From the NCBI GenBank assembly GCA_937128475.1, contig CAKZML010000122.1, positions 1-48,299 on the forward strand: a stretch of DNA of 48,299 nucleotides, written 5' to 3'. Within the stretch, counting starts at the first letter, position 1; every line of letters starts with the position of its first letter. The notes below the pieces were generated by a model. It was not told where the DNA came from and ran no database searches. It saw only the letters and a program-made list of their open reading frames with translations. The translations under genes and the position numbers were made by a program. Shown here one piece after another: positions 129 to 17,024 of this stretch. The DNA comes from an uncultured Chromatiales bacterium. GTDB lineage: Bacteria > Pseudomonadota > Gammaproteobacteria > Steroidobacterales > BM003.

Positions 129-2243
129 ATGAAAAATAGCTACAAGATACTCGGCAAGGCCATCGCCCTGCTAACCCTGTCAATCGCAGGAATGCCAAGC
201 GCCTGGGCATTTGGCAGCTACCTATCTGAATTTTCAGGCTTGTACTCCTCATCGACTACCGATGCAGCCAACTGCGCGGTATGTCACAACAGCGTCAACA
301 GCGGCAGCGGATTTAACGCCTATGGCAACGCACTGCGAAATTCTTCCGCCGCAAACGCCAATAGTGCGTTCGCGAACTGGCTGGCCGAGGTCGAAGGTGA
401 CGACTCAGACGGTGAGGGTAATTCCAATCTGGTGGAGATCATGGCGAGCAGCCAACCGGGATGGTGCTCAGGCAGCTCATGCGCCAACGCTCCATCAGGC
501 ATGTCCGGCATGATGCTGGACCCCGCTCCCCAGCAAACCAATAACCCGCCGGTCGCCAATGCAGCCGGCCCATACACCGGCGAGGCCGGTACCCCGATAC
601 AGTTCGACGGATCAGGATCCTCTGACCCTGACGGAGACACCCTGGTGAGCTACGCCTGGACCTTTGGCGATGGCAGCACCGGAAGTGGCGCGAACCCCAG
701 CCATACCTATGCAACCGGCGGCGAGTTTACCGTGACCCTTGTGGTTAACGACGGCACCGTGGACAGCGCCGAGGCAACCGCCACCGCATCCATAAGCACC
801 CCGCCGACCAACGCTGCCCCCACCGCCAATGCCGGCGGACCCTATGAGGGACAGCCCGACGTGGCCGTGGACTTTGACGGCTCTGGGTCCAGCGATCCCA
901 ATGGCGACGCATTGACCTACGCCTGGGACTTCGGAGATGGCACCATCGGTACCGGCGTAACCACCAGCCATACCTATACCGCCGAGAACACTTACACCGC
1001 GACCCTGACAGTCACCGACCCCGATGGCTTGTCAGATTTCGTAGATGTGACCGTGACCATCGCCATTCCCCCGGCCAACCGGGCCCCTGTTGCCAATGTG
1101 GGCGGTCCTTACAACAACATTTATTCCGGCGCGGCGTACACCTTTAACGGTGCAGGCTCCAGCGATCCTGATGGGGACACACTGACCTACGCCTGGGATT
1201 TCGGTGACTCCAACACAGGTACCGGCCAAAGCCCGGCCCACAGCTACAGCACGGCCGGCGATTACACGCTTAGCCTGACTGTCAGCGATGCTGAATTCTC
1301 CAGTGACCCATCCGTGACCACTATCACGGTCGCCGATCCAGCCGAACTCACTGGTGGCGAAGCCCTGTATTCCAACAGTTGCGCAGGTTGCCATGGTGAT
1401 CCCTGGGCAGGTCCCGCTGTCGATGAGATGTTGATGGGTATGCGTCGCCTGGCCGGTGCAAGAGAGTGCACCATCACGGCATCAATATTCGGCTCAAGCG
1501 CCGTACCCATGATGAGCTACCTGGATTATCTCAGCGCTGCCGAGATTACCGAACTCGCCGTGTACCTGAACTCCAGGGACGCCACCGGTGAGCAACGTTA
1601 CGTGACCGGTTGTGCCGGTTGCCACGGCGCCGATGGTTCCGGTGGTTCCAGCGACGAGGACGTGATGGGCGAAAGCGCCGGCGAGACGGCCATGGCGATC
1701 ATGGAAGAAAGCGAAATGCTGTTCCTCGCCTGCCTGCCCGAGTCGGATCTCAAGGCTATCGGAAGCTTCCTGACCAATGCTGACGGCGATAACGATCATG
1801 ACGGCATCGACGACGAGATGGACTCCGATGACGATAACGATGGCATTAGCGATGACATGGACTCGGATGACGACAATGACGGTTTGAGTGACGACGAGGA
1901 ACATGAGTACGGCACCAATTCCAGTGACCATGACAGCGACAATGACGGCATCGACGACGGTGAGGAAATCCACGAGCACCACACCAATCCGCTCGATGAC
2001 GACAGCGACGACGACGGCCTGACGGACGGTGAAGAAATCAACGAATACGGCACCGATCCTAACGACGAAGATACGGATGACGACGGTTACAGCGATGGCA
2101 CCGAAACCAAGATCATGGGAACCAATCCACTGGTTGCCAACACTGCTGCCAAGACCACTGGTGGTGGAGGCGGAGCCTTCGGCTTGTTCCTGCTGATCGG
2201 TCTTCTGGTCAGTCGGGTTATCCGCAGCGATTCGAAGCGGTAG
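129..2243 (+). CDS. Exported triheme cytochrome with three PKD domains, TSP3-type calcium repeats and GlyGly-CTERM anchor
   Basis: 704 aa. Seen: a signal peptide (hydrophobic residues 11-27, cleavage near AWA-FG). Three CxxCH haem motifs lie near residues 49 (CAVCH), 418 (CAGCH) and 495 (CAGCH). Three PKD domains sit at about 138-222, 229-314 and 318-401, each with the GDG/GDS-T-G and SHTY-type motif. An aspartate-rich run at about 552-670 has D-x-D-x-D-G-x-x-D repeats typical of thrombospondin type 3 calcium sites. The tail has five glycines near 678, a hydrophobic helix and a basic end, which is the GlyGly-CTERM signal. Known: such tails are processed by rhombosortase and go with type II secretion to the cell surface. 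Inferred: a surface or secreted redox protein held by calcium-stabilised modules. The start has a strong AAGGGGAAG Shine-Dalgarno sequence. The partner and substrate are unknown. Confidence 0.85.
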   Translation: MKNSYKILGKAIALLTLSIAGMPSAWAFGSYLSEFSGLYSSSTTDAANCAVCHNSVNSGSGFNAYGNALRNSSAANANSAFANWLAEVEGDDSDGEGNSNLVEIMASSQPGWCSGSSCANAPSGMSGMMLDPAPQQTNNPPVANAAGPYTGEAGTPIQFDGSGSSDPDGDTLVSYAWTFGDGSTGSGANPSHTYATGGEFTVTLVVNDGTVDSAEATATASISTPPTNAAPTANAGGPYEGQPDVAVDFDGSGSSDPNGDALTYAWDFGDGTIGTGVTTSHTYTAENTYTATLTVTDPDGLSDFVDVTVTIAIPPANRAPVANVGGPYNNIYSGAAYTFNGAGSSDPDGDTLTYAWDFGDSNTGTGQSPAHSYSTAGDYTLSLTVSDAEFSSDPSVTTITVADPAELTGGEALYSNSCAGCHGDPWAGPAVDEMLMGMRRLAGARECTITASIFGSSAVPMMSYLDYLSAAEITELAVYLNSRDATGEQRYVTGCAGCHGADGSGGSSDEDVMGESAGETAMAIMEESEMLFLACLPESDLKAIGSFLTNADGDNDHDGIDDEMDSDDDNDGISDDMDSDDDNDGLSDDEEHEYGTNSSDHDSDNDGIDDGEEIHEHHTNPLDDDSDDDGLTDGEEINEYGTDPNDEDTDDDGYSDGTETKIMGTNPLVANTAAKTTGGGGGAFGLFLLIGLLVSRVIRSDSKR

Positions 2244-11084: not shown

Positions 11085-11263
11085 CAGCGCTACACCGTCC
11101 ACCAGAACCTGTCAGGCCTAATAGGAATCGTAGGAATCGAGTAATAGTCGTGGAGCTCGAGTTACGCCTTCGGGGGCTAGTCTCCCGGGCATCACGAGTA
11201 CCTCTATCTTTCGCATACAGTACTGATCAGCCTGTCCTGAGCTCCGATTAGTACCCGCCAAGT

Positions 11264-11329
11264 AAAAAGGCGGACCCGAAGGCCCGCCTTTATTCTTCTC
11301 TTGAGATGAGGTGGACCCGAAGGTCCACC
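11264..11329 (-). terminator. Tandem UUCG-capped hairpins ending the first decaheme cytochrome gene
   Basis: Read on the minus strand, the first hairpin is GGTGGACC-TTCG-GGTCCACC (11310-11329), a perfect 8-bp stem. The second is GGCGGGCC-TTCG-GGTCCGCC with one G-U pair, followed by TTTTT (11264-11289). Both loops are the extra-stable C(UUCG)G type. The second hairpin with its U run is a standard intrinsic terminator; the first may protect the mRNA 3' end. The same arrangement follows the neighbouring paralogue. Confidence 0.88.
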
Positions 11330-11342
11330 CCGTACTCTTTTC

Positions 11343-13730
11343 TTACTGGAACATCGCCATGATCTTGTCGATGATGCCGTAGAGAACTACGTCGTCAGCG
11401 TCATTTTCGACCAGGGTTCCGCCCATCTGGGTGTGCGCATTAAACGCAGCCAGTGCACCAAACTCATTTTCGTTAATGAGGTCGGCTCTATGGCAAGCAC
11501 CGCAAGCGCGTGAAGCAGGACCGGTTACATACTCAGGCACTGTCAGGGCACGACCATCTACGTCGTCGCTTGAAGACAGCAGTCCAGGCAGGGATTCAGC
11601 CTGATCCGGCACGTTGTACACACCAGCGGTATGGCAAGCTTCACAGTTGGTGATAGTGAAGTTCGGGAAGGTAGCGTGAGCGTGATGCTCATAGCGCATG
11701 GCTTCCACAGGATCAGTAAAGTCAACATCACCTATGTCAAACGGCTGGAATGAATGGATTGCATGCGCATAGGAGTCGATTGAACGAGACGCCAATTCCA
11801 GGTGGCTACCAGGACTGGTGGTCACATGGCAATTTCTGCAGGCTTCAACCGTACTACGACCGCTGCCACCGTGGAAGGTGACTGCCAGCTTGTCATGGCA
11901 GGCTTCGCACTTGGCATTGTCGACCGTCGCATTGCCATCGGTGAAGTAATCAGCAACTTCGGTGCCATCAGCAACATCAAAGTTCATGATCACTGCATCA
12001 AGGCCTACGCCAACGCCAGCAGCGGTGGTGTAGCGAGGTGCGATGGTGATTGCACCGGTCTTGATGACGCCATCGGCGATCAAGGTCGGGATGTCGTTGG
12101 TGCTTTCAGCCATATAGGTCGTCAAGTCCATGACGGCGGTATAGCTGGTTGCGCCAAGAGCATTCGGCGTGAACACAAACAAGGCATTGTCATCACCAGG
12201 AGCAGCTTCGTAACGCAGGCTGTTGGCATCCCGTGTATGAGAAGCAACGATCATTTGCTTGCTATCCCAACCGTAGAATGACAGGTAGATGTACGGAACC
12301 ATGTCGGCGTCGTCGACACTGAACTCTACCGTGACAATATTTCCCGTCACATCGATAGAATCGATGCTGGCGGTCAACTTGTCAGCGTACTTCACCTCGT
12401 CGGTAGCATCAGTGATGCGTGCGTCATAACCGGTATGCAGGTCAGAGAACACAGAATCAGCAACCTGGCCCATATGGCAGCTTTCGCAGGTCTGTCCTTC
12501 ATTATGGAAGGTCACGCCGCGTGTGAACCAGATGTAGGACAGTGCAGGTGCACGGTTACGTGCATAGTAAATTCCAGGAACGCTGCGTCCGCGGCTATCC
12601 AGGATCTCGTCACCAGCCGCATCAAAGGTCTTCGGCCAGGCATCAACACCAGTTACAGGATGGCAGCTCTTGCAAGTTTCCAACGTGAAATTGGCATCAG
12701 CCAACACTGTCTCCAGCTTGCCTTCATGGCAAGTGGCGCAATTGGCCATTGACTGCGGATACGGGAATTCCATGGCGTGCGACATATGCACGTCATTCAT
12801 GAAGCTTCTCGTGTAGGTGTAGTCAGCCGTCGGCGCTGCATCGGTTGCATAGCCATAGGGATCATCAACCAGATACTGCCAGTCTTCATGACCACCGTTT
12901 TTATCGTCGACATGGCATGCATGGCACTGCAAGAAATCGGGAGAGCCAGGTACCACGGCTGCGATATTGCCGTGCTTGTTATAAGGCTTACCGTGACAGC
13001 TTTCGCAAGCCTCTACATTGGCAGCAGATTCCCATGTGCCAATATTACCGATGTCGAAAATATCGTGAGCCAGGTTGTCGTACAGATGAACGCGCGCGCC
13101 AGTGTTGACGTCAGCGATGTTGAGCTCATCAGTAGCAATCTTGCCGATGATAGCGCCACCGACAAATGCTGAAGCATCGTAGGTCAGGTTCTGTTCCAGC
13201 GTGTAGGTGCCGTCACCGTTACTTTCGGAGTTTCCAGCAGCCAGTGCCGGGTAAAAACCACCGCCTGAAGTCAGCCAATCGCCGTTGTCATCGCGCTGTG
13301 CAACATAGAAGCCGATCGAGTCAACTGACGGGCTGGTGCCCGCGGCGTCGATAAGGGGCTGGCCATCAACGTCAATGCTGAACGTCAAGGTCAAATCCCA
13401 GGTGTCGGCAGCTGCACCTTCAACACTCGTCATGTCAGTGATAGCCAACTCAAGGTTGGAATCAAGGTACTTGTTGTATTCGGCTTGGTGCATGTCGCCC
13501 GAACCGCCGTGACAGACATTACAAGATTCTGCTTTTGCCTGAAGGACCGGATCAATCGTCGCATCAATACCGTCTGTACCGTCAGCACCGGGAGCGCCAG
13601 CAATACCGTCAACGCCATCAGCGCCGTCAGCGCCAGCGGCTCCGTCAGAGCCATCGCTTCCGCAACCACTCAATGATAAAACACTGGCCAGCGCCGTCGC
13701 TGCCAGTAACATAGTCCATCTACCTTTCAT
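11343..13730 (-). CDS. OmcA/MtrC-family decaheme c-type cytochrome, lipoprotein (copy A)
   Basis: 795 aa from the ATG at 13730, chosen because GGAG lies 6 nt upstream; an ATG 12 nt earlier overlaps that site. Seen: a lipoprotein signal with lipobox LSGC (Cys23), a collagen-like G-x-y run rich in GADG/GTDG (about 24-57), then ten CxxCH haem motifs: CNVCH, CESCH, CHACH, CATCH, CKSCH, CESCH, CEACH, CRNCH, CEACH, CGACH. Known: ten haems plus a lipid anchor are the mark of OmcA/MtrC proteins, which pass electrons at the outer surface to metals, minerals or other acceptors. Residues about 311-700 are encoded by DNA identical to copy B, whereas the N-terminal domain before that is divergent. No MtrA/MtrB partner is nearby. 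Confidence 0.9.
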   Translation of the reverse strand: MKGRWTMLLAATALASVLSLSGCGSDGSDGAAGADGADGVDGIAGAPGADGTDGIDATIDPVLQAKAESCNVCHGGSGDMHQAEYNKYLDSNLELAITDMTSVEGAAADTWDLTLTFSIDVDGQPLIDAAGTSPSVDSIGFYVAQRDDNGDWLTSGGGFYPALAAGNSESNGDGTYTLEQNLTYDASAFVGGAIIGKIATDELNIADVNTGARVHLYDNLAHDIFDIGNIGTWESAANVEACESCHGKPYNKHGNIAAVVPGSPDFLQCHACHVDDKNGGHEDWQYLVDDPYGYATDAAPTADYTYTRSFMNDVHMSHAMEFPYPQSMANCATCHEGKLETVLADANFTLETCKSCHPVTGVDAWPKTFDAAGDEILDSRGRSVPGIYYARNRAPALSYIWFTRGVTFHNEGQTCESCHMGQVADSVFSDLHTGYDARITDATDEVKYADKLTASIDSIDVTGNIVTVEFSVDDADMVPYIYLSFYGWDSKQMIVASHTRDANSLRYEAAPGDDNALFVFTPNALGATSYTAVMDLTTYMAESTNDIPTLIADGVIKTGAITIAPRYTTAAGVGVGLDAVIMNFDVADGTEVADYFTDGNATVDNAKCEACHDKLAVTFHGGSGRSTVEACRNCHVTTSPGSHLELASRSIDSYAHAIHSFQPFDIGDVDFTDPVEAMRYEHHAHATFPNFTITNCEACHTAGVYNVPDQAESLPGLLSSSDDVDGRALTVPEYVTGPASRACGACHRADLINENEFGALAAFNAHTQMGGTLVENDADDVVLYGIIDKIMAMFQ
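11629..12800. repeat. 1,172-bp direct repeat, copy 1 (inside cytochrome A)
   Basis: By eye this stretch is base-for-base identical to 14351-15522 (constant offset 2,722). The last mismatch on the left is at 11628 (g against a), and the sequences diverge sharply right of 12800. Both open reading frames are kept through the tract. Confidence 0.9.
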
Positions 13731-13985
13731 GATCATCTCCAAGGGGGGCGTGCTAAGCGTTTCCCCATGATTAAAAAATCAATACCCAACCTAAGTAATG
13801 CGCCTACTAGCTCTCTAAATTTAGAGAGAGGCTAGAAGTTTTCTTATACTTTGGTCTAACTCATACGTTAGTCTAATTAGGACATTTTTTATGGCAGATA
13901 AACATACGTACTTATTGCTCGAAAACCGCAGTTTTGCGTATCATATTTGTCCGTATGCCCTACGGAATACCGATACCAGCCAAAT
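13731..13985 (-). promoter_or_regulatory. Upstream region and leader of cytochrome A with an 18-bp perfect palindrome
   Basis: With the terminator of copy B this fills the 334 bp between the two cytochrome genes; no gene is present. Seen: the Shine-Dalgarno GGAG at 13737-13740; a block just upstream of it (GCGTGCTAAGCG core) shared with copy B; a perfect palindrome CTCTCTAAATTTAGAGAG at 13811-13828 inside outer CTAGC/GCTAG arms (13807-13835); and an AT-rich stretch with TATAAG on the minus strand near 13846-13851 that could be a -10. Further up, TTAGAC occurs twice. If the -10 guess is right, the palindrome lies in the 5' UTR as an RNA hairpin. Otherwise it may be an operator. Confidence 0.5.
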
Positions 13986-14051
13986 AAAAAGGCGGGCCCG
14001 AAGGCCCGCCTCTTTTCTTCTCTTGAGATGAGGCGGACCCGAAGGTCCACC
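13986..14051 (-). terminator. Tandem UUCG-capped hairpins ending the second decaheme cytochrome gene
   Basis: Minus-strand hairpins are GGTGGACC-TTCG-GGTCCGCC (14032-14051, one U-G pair) and AGGCGGGCC-TTCG-GGCCCGCCT (about 13990-14011, a perfect 9-bp stem) followed by TTTTATTTG. The arrangement and much of the sequence match the terminator of copy A, so the duplication unit included the 3' end. Confidence 0.88.
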
Positions 14052-14064
14052 TCGTACTCGTTTC

Positions 14065-16440
14065 TTACTCGAACATCGCCATGATCTTGTCAATGATGCC
14101 GTAGAGAACTACGTCGTCTTCATCATTTACGACCAGGGTTCCGCCCATTTCGGTGTGCGCATTAAACGCAGCCAGTGCACCAAACTCATTTTCGTTAAGG
14201 AGGTCGGCTCTATGGCAACCACCGCAAGCACGTGAAGCAGGACCGGTTACATATTCAGGAACCGTCAGGCCACGTCCATCTACGCTGTCGCTCTTGGCCA
14301 GCAGGCCAGGCAGGGATTTAGCCTGGTCAGGCACGTTGTACACACCAGCAGTATGGCAAGCTTCACAGTTGGTGATAGTGAAGTTCGGGAAGGTAGCGTG
14401 AGCGTGATGCTCATAGCGCATGGCTTCCACAGGATCAGTAAAGTCAACATCACCTATGTCAAACGGCTGGAATGAATGGATTGCATGCGCATAGGAGTCG
14501 ATTGAACGAGACGCCAATTCCAGGTGGCTACCAGGACTGGTGGTCACATGGCAATTTCTGCAGGCTTCAACCGTACTACGACCGCTGCCACCGTGGAAGG
14601 TGACTGCCAGCTTGTCATGGCAGGCTTCGCACTTGGCATTGTCGACCGTCGCATTGCCATCGGTGAAGTAATCAGCAACTTCGGTGCCATCAGCAACATC
14701 AAAGTTCATGATCACTGCATCAAGGCCTACGCCAACGCCAGCAGCGGTGGTGTAGCGAGGTGCGATGGTGATTGCACCGGTCTTGATGACGCCATCGGCG
14801 ATCAAGGTCGGGATGTCGTTGGTGCTTTCAGCCATATAGGTCGTCAAGTCCATGACGGCGGTATAGCTGGTTGCGCCAAGAGCATTCGGCGTGAACACAA
14901 ACAAGGCATTGTCATCACCAGGAGCAGCTTCGTAACGCAGGCTGTTGGCATCCCGTGTATGAGAAGCAACGATCATTTGCTTGCTATCCCAACCGTAGAA
15001 TGACAGGTAGATGTACGGAACCATGTCGGCGTCGTCGACACTGAACTCTACCGTGACAATATTTCCCGTCACATCGATAGAATCGATGCTGGCGGTCAAC
15101 TTGTCAGCGTACTTCACCTCGTCGGTAGCATCAGTGATGCGTGCGTCATAACCGGTATGCAGGTCAGAGAACACAGAATCAGCAACCTGGCCCATATGGC
15201 AGCTTTCGCAGGTCTGTCCTTCATTATGGAAGGTCACGCCGCGTGTGAACCAGATGTAGGACAGTGCAGGTGCACGGTTACGTGCATAGTAAATTCCAGG
15301 AACGCTGCGTCCGCGGCTATCCAGGATCTCGTCACCAGCCGCATCAAAGGTCTTCGGCCAGGCATCAACACCAGTTACAGGATGGCAGCTCTTGCAAGTT
15401 TCCAACGTGAAATTGGCATCAGCCAACACTGTCTCCAGCTTGCCTTCATGGCAAGTGGCGCAATTGGCCATTGACTGCGGATACGGGAATTCCATGGCGT
15501 GCGACATATGCACGTCATTCATCACGTTGGCCGTGTACGCATACTTGGTTTCGAAGTCAGGCGGGTAGTCTTCGGTTGCATAGGCATAGGGATCGTCAAC
15601 CAACAACTGCCAATCCTCGTGGCCACCTGAGCGATCGTCGTAATGGCAAGTGCGGCAAGCAACAAAACTCTCAAGGCCAGCAACCATAGCCGGACGTTCG
15701 CCGTGCTTCAGGTAGGGGCTGCCATGGCAGGCTTCGCAACCTTCCACGTTAGCGGCTGAGCTATAGGCTTCTGCGCCAGGAGTCGTGTAACCGGCACTGC
15801 CGATATTCGCATGCAAGCGCATGTGAGCAGCATAGTTCACGTCACCGATAACCACTTCTTCGTCTCCGAACCAAAGAGCAAAAGCGGCGTCGCTGGACGG
15901 ATCATAGGCCACGTCGATAGCGGCGGCATTGAATGCACCGTCGGCACCGGTCAGGGTCAAGCTAACAACATCAAAGAAACCATTTGCTGTGGCGTCATAG
16001 CGCATCACATAGGCTCTGCGAGTTCTCATGGTGTCGAGGCTGGCCAAGTCTGCGCCGTTCTCGGTGACCGTGAAGTCGATATCGAAATTGTAAAGACCTT
16101 CAGCAGATCCCGGACCGACAGCCAGTGACGCCTCATCAATGAGAACTACCAGAGAGCTGTCGTGACCGCTGCCCTGGTACTTGTTGTATTCGGCCTGGTG
16201 CATATCACCGACACCACCGTGACAGACATCACAAGATTCTGCCTTGGCCTGAAGGATCGGATCAATCGTCGCATCAATACCGTCTGTACCGTCAGAACCG
16301 GGAGGGCCAGCAATACCGTCAACGCCATCAGCGCCGTCAGCGCCAGCTGCTCCGTCAGAGCCATCGCTTCCGCAACCACTCAATGTCAAAACACTGGCCA
16401 GCGCCGTCGCTGCCAGTAACAAAGTCCATTTGCCTTTCAT
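14065..16440 (-). CDS. OmcA/MtrC-family decaheme c-type cytochrome, lipoprotein (copy B)
   Basis: 791 aa. Seen: a signal peptide nearly identical to copy A with lipobox LSGC (Cys23 region), the same collagen-like G-x-y run, and ten CxxCH motifs (CDVCH, CEACH, CRTCH, CATCH, CKSCH, CESCH, CEACH, CRNCH, CEACH, CGGCH). The start has GGGGGA a few bases upstream. Residues about 60-300 differ strongly from copy A (different sequence around haems 2-3), while about 307-696 are identical at DNA level and the last 95 residues are close but not identical. Known family role: outer-surface terminal electron transfer. Inferred: A and B share one core but have different N-terminal faces, perhaps for different partners or acceptors. 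It has its own terminator, so it is likely expressed separately from A. Confidence 0.9.
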   Translation of the reverse strand: MKGKWTLLLAATALASVLTLSGCGSDGSDGAAGADGADGVDGIAGPPGSDGTDGIDATIDPILQAKAESCDVCHGGVGDMHQAEYNKYQGSGHDSSLVVLIDEASLAVGPGSAEGLYNFDIDFTVTENGADLASLDTMRTRRAYVMRYDATANGFFDVVSLTLTGADGAFNAAAIDVAYDPSSDAAFALWFGDEEVVIGDVNYAAHMRLHANIGSAGYTTPGAEAYSSAANVEGCEACHGSPYLKHGERPAMVAGLESFVACRTCHYDDRSGGHEDWQLLVDDPYAYATEDYPPDFETKYAYTANVMNDVHMSHAMEFPYPQSMANCATCHEGKLETVLADANFTLETCKSCHPVTGVDAWPKTFDAAGDEILDSRGRSVPGIYYARNRAPALSYIWFTRGVTFHNEGQTCESCHMGQVADSVFSDLHTGYDARITDATDEVKYADKLTASIDSIDVTGNIVTVEFSVDDADMVPYIYLSFYGWDSKQMIVASHTRDANSLRYEAAPGDDNALFVFTPNALGATSYTAVMDLTTYMAESTNDIPTLIADGVIKTGAITIAPRYTTAAGVGVGLDAVIMNFDVADGTEVADYFTDGNATVDNAKCEACHDKLAVTFHGGSGRSTVEACRNCHVTTSPGSHLELASRSIDSYAHAIHSFQPFDIGDVDFTDPVEAMRYEHHAHATFPNFTITNCEACHTAGVYNVPDQAKSLPGLLAKSDSVDGRGLTVPEYVTGPASRACGGCHRADLLNENEFGALAAFNAHTEMGGTLVVNDEDDVVLYGIIDKIMAMFE
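14351..15522. repeat. 1,172-bp direct repeat, copy 2 (inside cytochrome B)
   Basis: Identical by eye to 11629-12800, same orientation and same reading frame. It is bounded by partly similar sequence on the left and by strongly divergent sequence on the right. Confidence 0.9.
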
Positions 16441-17024
16441 GATTATCCCCCGGGGGGCGTGCTAAGCGTTTCCCCAGATTATTAAGAGCCAATCTAGTTT
16501 CTTAGACGATCCATCGTCTAGGCAGCCATCTACGACGGCCTTGGAGAACCTTCTAAGACCACTCATCAATTAAGACAGAAAAGTAACCCTAAAAAAATAG
16601 GTATTAAAACGTAATAAATAACATTTTATACACGTTTTTAAGGGGTTTTTCGAGATTGAGTCGTAGTTTATTAACAGTCGAAAACGAGACTCTTCATAGA
16701 ATTAATTAAAAATGATCAATCTAAATATTCCAATGCAAATAAAACCCGTTATAGAACCCACCGGCAAAAGCCTGTCGATGACCCGAATTATGTGCATGAA
16801 ATACCCGCGCACGCCTCCTCGTCCCGTGCGCGACCTAGCCTGGGAAAGAGACCATGGAATTATGATCCGAGTATGAAATTTCAGTAGCTTGGTTAACAAA
16901 AAACATGCCTCGCGGCGAAAAACTTGCGACAAGCAGAATTTGGGTTCTAAATGGATCAGGACTGCCGCCGGAAAGATTCGCGGCTTTTAAACGATTGAGA
17001 GCACAAGCAAAAGGACAAGTAACC
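16441..17024. promoter_or_regulatory. AT-rich intergenic region upstream of cytochrome B
   Basis: A 584-bp stretch with no credible gene, flanked by divergent transcription units, so it should hold the promoters of cytochrome B (minus) and of the small gene at 17025 (plus). Seen: near 16450-16475 the same leader block as upstream of copy A; a perfect inverted repeat TAGACGAT-CC-ATCGTCTA at 16503-16520, in the same relative place as the palindrome of copy A but with different sequence; and a very AT-rich tract at 16560-16720. I could not assign a regulator site with confidence. Confidence 0.45.

Follow-up and report, generated by a model that had tools for sequence, protein, structure and literature searches.

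Two adjacent genes for decaheme cytochromes, A and B, carry an identical core of 1,172 bp joined to two strongly different N-terminal barrels. They lie in the window, i.e., the whole stretch of 48,299 nucleotides that was analysed, which is the complete contig C122 of a draft genome of 307 contigs (G000). A and B are probably old tandem paralogues, the cores of which have repeatedly been homogenised by gene conversion while two types of domain I have persisted. The evidence base is one fully assembled pair (A/B) and one truncated pair from another family (G219), both from draft assemblies. The parts of the A/B pair are as follows.

11343..13730, minus strand: gene A, decaheme lipoprotein cytochrome (795 aa from ATG; 10 CxxCH; lipobox LSGC; PF22113, 88.1 bits)
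14065..16440, minus strand: gene B, decaheme lipoprotein cytochrome, upstream of A (791 aa; 10 CxxCH; lipobox LSGC; PF22113, 83.7 bits)
11629..12800, minus strand: identical core, copy A (haems 4–9 with domain III)
14351..15522, minus strand: identical core, copy B (haems 4–9 with domain III)
12801..13465, minus strand: diverged block A, domain-I-like barrel (type I, by tree) and haems 2–3; barrel amino acid identity 21% to B and 72% to G001
15523..16175, minus strand: diverged block B, barrel of the type shared with G153 (by tree) and haems 2–3; barrel amino acid identity 48% to G153
13466..13747, minus strand: 5′ shared block A, with start region, signal peptide, collagen-like linker and haem 1; 92% to B
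16176..16457, minus strand: 5′ shared block B; 92% to A
11252..11628, minus strand: 3′ shared block A, with haem 10, gene end and terminator hairpins; 36 mismatches in 377 bp against B
13974..14350, minus strand: 3′ shared block B, with haem 10, gene end and terminator hairpins (hairpin 13990–14011 found by scan)
13748..13973, minus strand: region upstream of A, unlike that upstream of B (by alignment)

Gene layout and protein family

Gene A has an alternative TTG start at 13742, which would give 799 aa, but the ATG at 13730 is more likely because it matches the start of B. Each gene has two hairpins in its 3′ block, and a T run follows the second of them. Ahead of the start codons, A and B align over a few tens of bases only, so the two genes probably have separate promoters; a promoter scan gave nothing above chance. 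In both genes the lipobox, an outer-membrane lipoprotein signal read from the sequence, is followed by a collagen-like linker. A linker of the same kind follows the lipobox in a separate lipoprotein-like protein of the same genome (locus L022, G000:C9:15240-18362; ORF 4-1770 on the minus strand, 588 aa, eight CxxCH), and a related frame occurs in G001:C25. The left end of the window (129–2243) encodes a protein that combines PKD repeats with a cytochrome c domain and bacterial TSP3 repeats.

Both proteins exceed the cut-off of 30 bits for PF22113 (MtrC/MtrF domains II/IV), while their scores for TIGR03507 (OmcA/MtrC family decaheme cytochrome), 163.2 and 141.8 bits, fall below the curated cut-off of 209.3; A and B are therefore divergent relatives that are not filed as members of TIGR03507. 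Despite their ten CxxCH motifs they do not show the 5+5 arrangement over domains II and IV seen in MtrC/OmcA; the layout is 1+5+4, with a single haem motif ahead of the first barrel, five behind it and four behind the second barrel, and most intact family members elsewhere share it. Compared with the 5+5 layout of MtrC (PMC12304082), one haem thus stands before domain I, five in domain II and four in domain IV; the haem ahead of the first barrel, and a last domain with one haem fewer than in MtrC, are seen in A, B and relatives. Structure models of the two proteins built from alignments of five sequences are of low confidence (pLDDT 39 and 41). The top Foldseek matches of the low-confidence model of protein A were MtrC, UndA, OmcA and MtrF, and the barrel of A (low-confidence model, pLDDT 41) matched domains I–II of MtrC (9eov) with Z 8.6 over 112 residues at an rmsd of 3.5. 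A Pfam search with the barrels returned no relative and one chance-level match, and a sequence search of solved structures gave nothing useful. On the two profile scores, the lipobox, the haem layout and the matches of the low-confidence model of A, A and B are called MtrC/OmcA-like, a divergent subfamily of the MtrC/OmcA superfamily. Among the barrels themselves, profile comparison gave probabilities of 99.5% for types I and II, 97.9% for type II and B, and 84% for type I and B, which indicates that the barrel types are mutually related and not unrelated inserts. As regards a possible MtrAB conduit for these cytochromes, no MtrB-like porin was found in G000, while one is present in the congeners G001 and G002; it has either been lost, or its contig was not binned. 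In several relatives, the cytochrome gene adjoins MtrC- and MtrA-like genes.

Identical core and diverged barrels

Positions 11629–12800 and 14351–15522 of the draft sequence are the same base for base, at an offset of 2,722; the sequence-only reading had reported exactly this, and the tract proves to be maximal at 1,172 bp and to include every silent site of about 390 core codons, whereas silent differences occur in both flanks. The abrupt right edge that it described is confirmed by dense mismatches from 12801 on, and the left edge is abrupt as well, with 36 mismatches in the 377 bp of 11252–11628 (about 90% identity). Its scattered mismatches at the 3′ ends are those 36; it had missed that the similarity continues beyond the stop codon and spans both terminator hairpins. 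The 5′ blocks, whose likeness it had also missed, differ at 19 of 264 coding bases and agree at 92% over about 280 bp, so the signal peptide, the collagen-like linker and haem 1 are common to A and B. Permuting the mismatches over 11252–12800 gave p ≤5e-4, the lowest value that 2,000 shuffles can yield; with flanks diverged by 7–10%, chance cannot account for a tract of 1,172 bp free of differences. One mark of gene conversion is identity that extends to silent sites and breaks off abruptly at diverged flanks, as is seen in A/B.

The N-terminal domains are strongly diverged, as the earlier reading held, but the diverged stretch covers about 215 residues (98–314) rather than about 240, and consists of a haem-free barrel together with haems 2–3. 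By part, the amino acid identity of A and B is 90% in the signal region, 21% in the barrel, 58% around haems 2–3, 100% in the core and 88% at the C end. Fast evolution of the barrel is ruled out as the cause, since the orthologous barrels of A and G001 (72%) are as conserved as the corresponding cores (62–71%); as the orthologous barrel evolves no faster than the core, an identity of 21% points to an old separation. The barrel of B is closest to that of G153, a genome of another family.

The trees, built from about 20 sequences, conflict between the two parts with good support at the relevant nodes, a second mark of gene conversion. In the barrel tree, A groups with G001 (100/100) and B with G153 (100/100), while copy 1 of G219 falls with type I and copy 2 with type II; in the core tree, A equals B and the two G219 copies group together (99/95). 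AU tests reject a single clade for the A and B barrels (p 5e-4), for the G219 barrels (p 5e-65) and for the type I cores (p 1e-5), so the groupings of a simple duplication are rejected. By a plain count, barrel type changes six times along the core tree. Judged by these trees, the two barrel types predate the split between A and B in the core.

The G219 pair, two tandem copies found in an order-wide search, has the anatomy of A/B and supports gene conversion beyond the window. Its copies are 81% identical in the signal region, 32% in the barrel, 65% around haems 2–3 and 79–87% in the core; the 70% at the C end covers only 27 residues since copy 2 runs off the contig. Silent-site patches of 96–100% identity alternate with stretches of about 45%, and the longest exact run is 155 bp (p 2e-4 by permutation, the minimum for 5,000 shuffles). 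This run is unexpected by chance, and the pair is a conversion patchwork. Like A/B, it joins two diverged barrels to close cores; its core is not fully identical, whereas that of A/B is 100%.

Relatives and competing explanations

The gene is present in the two congeners G001 and G002. On one side of the G002 locus lie DUF6763, SnoaL-like and AmpG genes and on the other TrmB, an FAD oxidoreductase and a patatin gene, which are also the neighbours in the window; both G002 contigs break within the cytochrome core, at about residues 344 and 396. This is what an unresolved exact repeat would cause and fits a tandem state, which is deduced from the breaks alone and not proved by them. In G001, the type I gene has another neighbour, and its contig stops at residue 687. 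G003 belongs to a different genus in the family; its site holds TrmB, DUF6763 and a small membrane protein but no cytochrome. Among the relatives, contig breaks fall in this gene in 9 of 22 cases (expected 3.4, p 0.002), against 3 of 20 for the MtrB control (Fisher p 0.064); as proof of repeats, the breaks are suggestive at most, being not clearly above that control. Most relatives show a single copy only, with either barrel type, and a class-wide search added just one further homologue, distant and truncated.

Purifying selection alone, which the sequence-only reading had offered beside conversion, is hardly conceivable as the reason for the alike cores. The core residues are indeed conserved across the family, but the cores are only 62–78% identical between species, even within the genus, and the complete identity at silent sites beside flanks with silent differences refutes selection unless that identity is an assembly effect. 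Such an effect, in which slightly different cores were collapsed by the assembler into one consensus placed twice, is itself very unlikely. The window is a complete contig in a draft of 307, contigs of relatives often break in this gene, and an exact repeat of 1,172 bp is longer than the usual k-mers of short-read assembly; however, copies 7–10% apart would hardly be collapsed where their flanks were kept apart, and it is left unexplained why the barrel and core trees disagree and why differences survive in the G219 patchwork. It would moreover weaken the words "exactly identical" but not the homogenisation. A third explanation, a recent duplication of the whole gene within this lineage, followed by replacement of the barrel and haem 2–3 block of one copy through homologous recombination with a foreign or distant allele and then by conversion of the core, is rather unlikely, although several observations agree with it: in amino acids, A and B agree at about 90% in the 5′ and 3′ blocks, far more than they do with G001 or G002 (66–71%), the site is occupied in G002 and without a cytochrome in G003, and the barrel at the DUF6763-side position of G002 is of another kind (29% identical to A, 21% to B) and set between ordinary flanks, so that barrels seem to get replaced. 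It still requires a later conversion for zero against 7–10% divergence, and to account for G219, where two barrel types also sit on similar cores, the same series of events would have to have happened twice.

Conversion of old paralogues, the part of the earlier explanation that stands, is favoured by the conflicting trees and the G219 patchwork. In this reading, tandem paralogues of this subfamily of outer-surface decaheme cytochromes have N-terminal barrels of two types that parted long ago, while all else in the gene is repeatedly copied from one paralogue into the other by homologous recombination between the direct repeats. The most recent event would have spanned 1,172 bp, ending where the barrel and haem 2–3 block is too different to pair. 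Recombination between A and B may well be ongoing. From the geometry of the repeats, recombination between them is predicted, as the earlier reading also had it, to delete 2,722 bp and leave a chimera with the front of B and the back of A; single-copy relatives with either barrel type would fit such losses.

Known systems and implications

A and B resemble MtrC, OmcA, MtrF and UndA, the outer-membrane multiheme cytochromes of Shewanella, in being lipoproteins with ten CxxCH motifs and PF22113 domains. In Geobacter sulfurreducens, the adjacent conduits ombB-omaB-omcB and ombC-omaC-omcC have porin and periplasmic subunits that are 100% identical while OmcB and OmcC share 71%, which has been read as duplication (PMC4589669, PMC4245776). 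These are likewise tandem genes for extracellular electron transfer with identical parts and a diverged cytochrome; however, their cytochromes have 12 haems, and identity and divergence are split between genes there but within one gene in A/B. Of the mtrCAB clusters, 44% are reported to have further mtrC copies beside them, and there are signs of gene flow; the passages on these duplications deal with whole genes and describe no sub-genic conversion or barrel exchange (PMC8805035). Neither the duplication of mtrC nor the occurrence of identical parts in tandem Geobacter conduits is thus new. A search of titles and abstracts in the open-access literature for gene conversion or concerted evolution together with multiheme or decaheme cytochromes found nothing relevant, which is weak evidence. 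The pairs A/B and G219 add to this, in two families, conversion inside a single gene while two barrel types are maintained.

The earlier picture of one electron-transfer core offered with two N-terminal faces is right in its anatomy. Substrate reduction by Shewanella MtrC depends on active sites on the C-terminal domains (PMC12304082), so the shared part of A and B would include the likely output side. The two barrels may serve different docking or anchoring partners, with the shared haem core giving the same electron output. It is a tentative possibility that domain I is an exchangeable cassette, two barrel types on one homogenised haem core, and that populations can exchange or lose a face through recombination between the repeats, as a diversification system for extracellular electron transfer. 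The A/B pair is a natural domain-swap experiment on the role of domain I. If the conversion reading is true, the evolution of extracellular-electron-transfer cytochromes would be modular, recombination keeping the haem wire uniform while the N-terminal barrel varies, and whole-protein trees of MtrC-like proteins would mix two histories.
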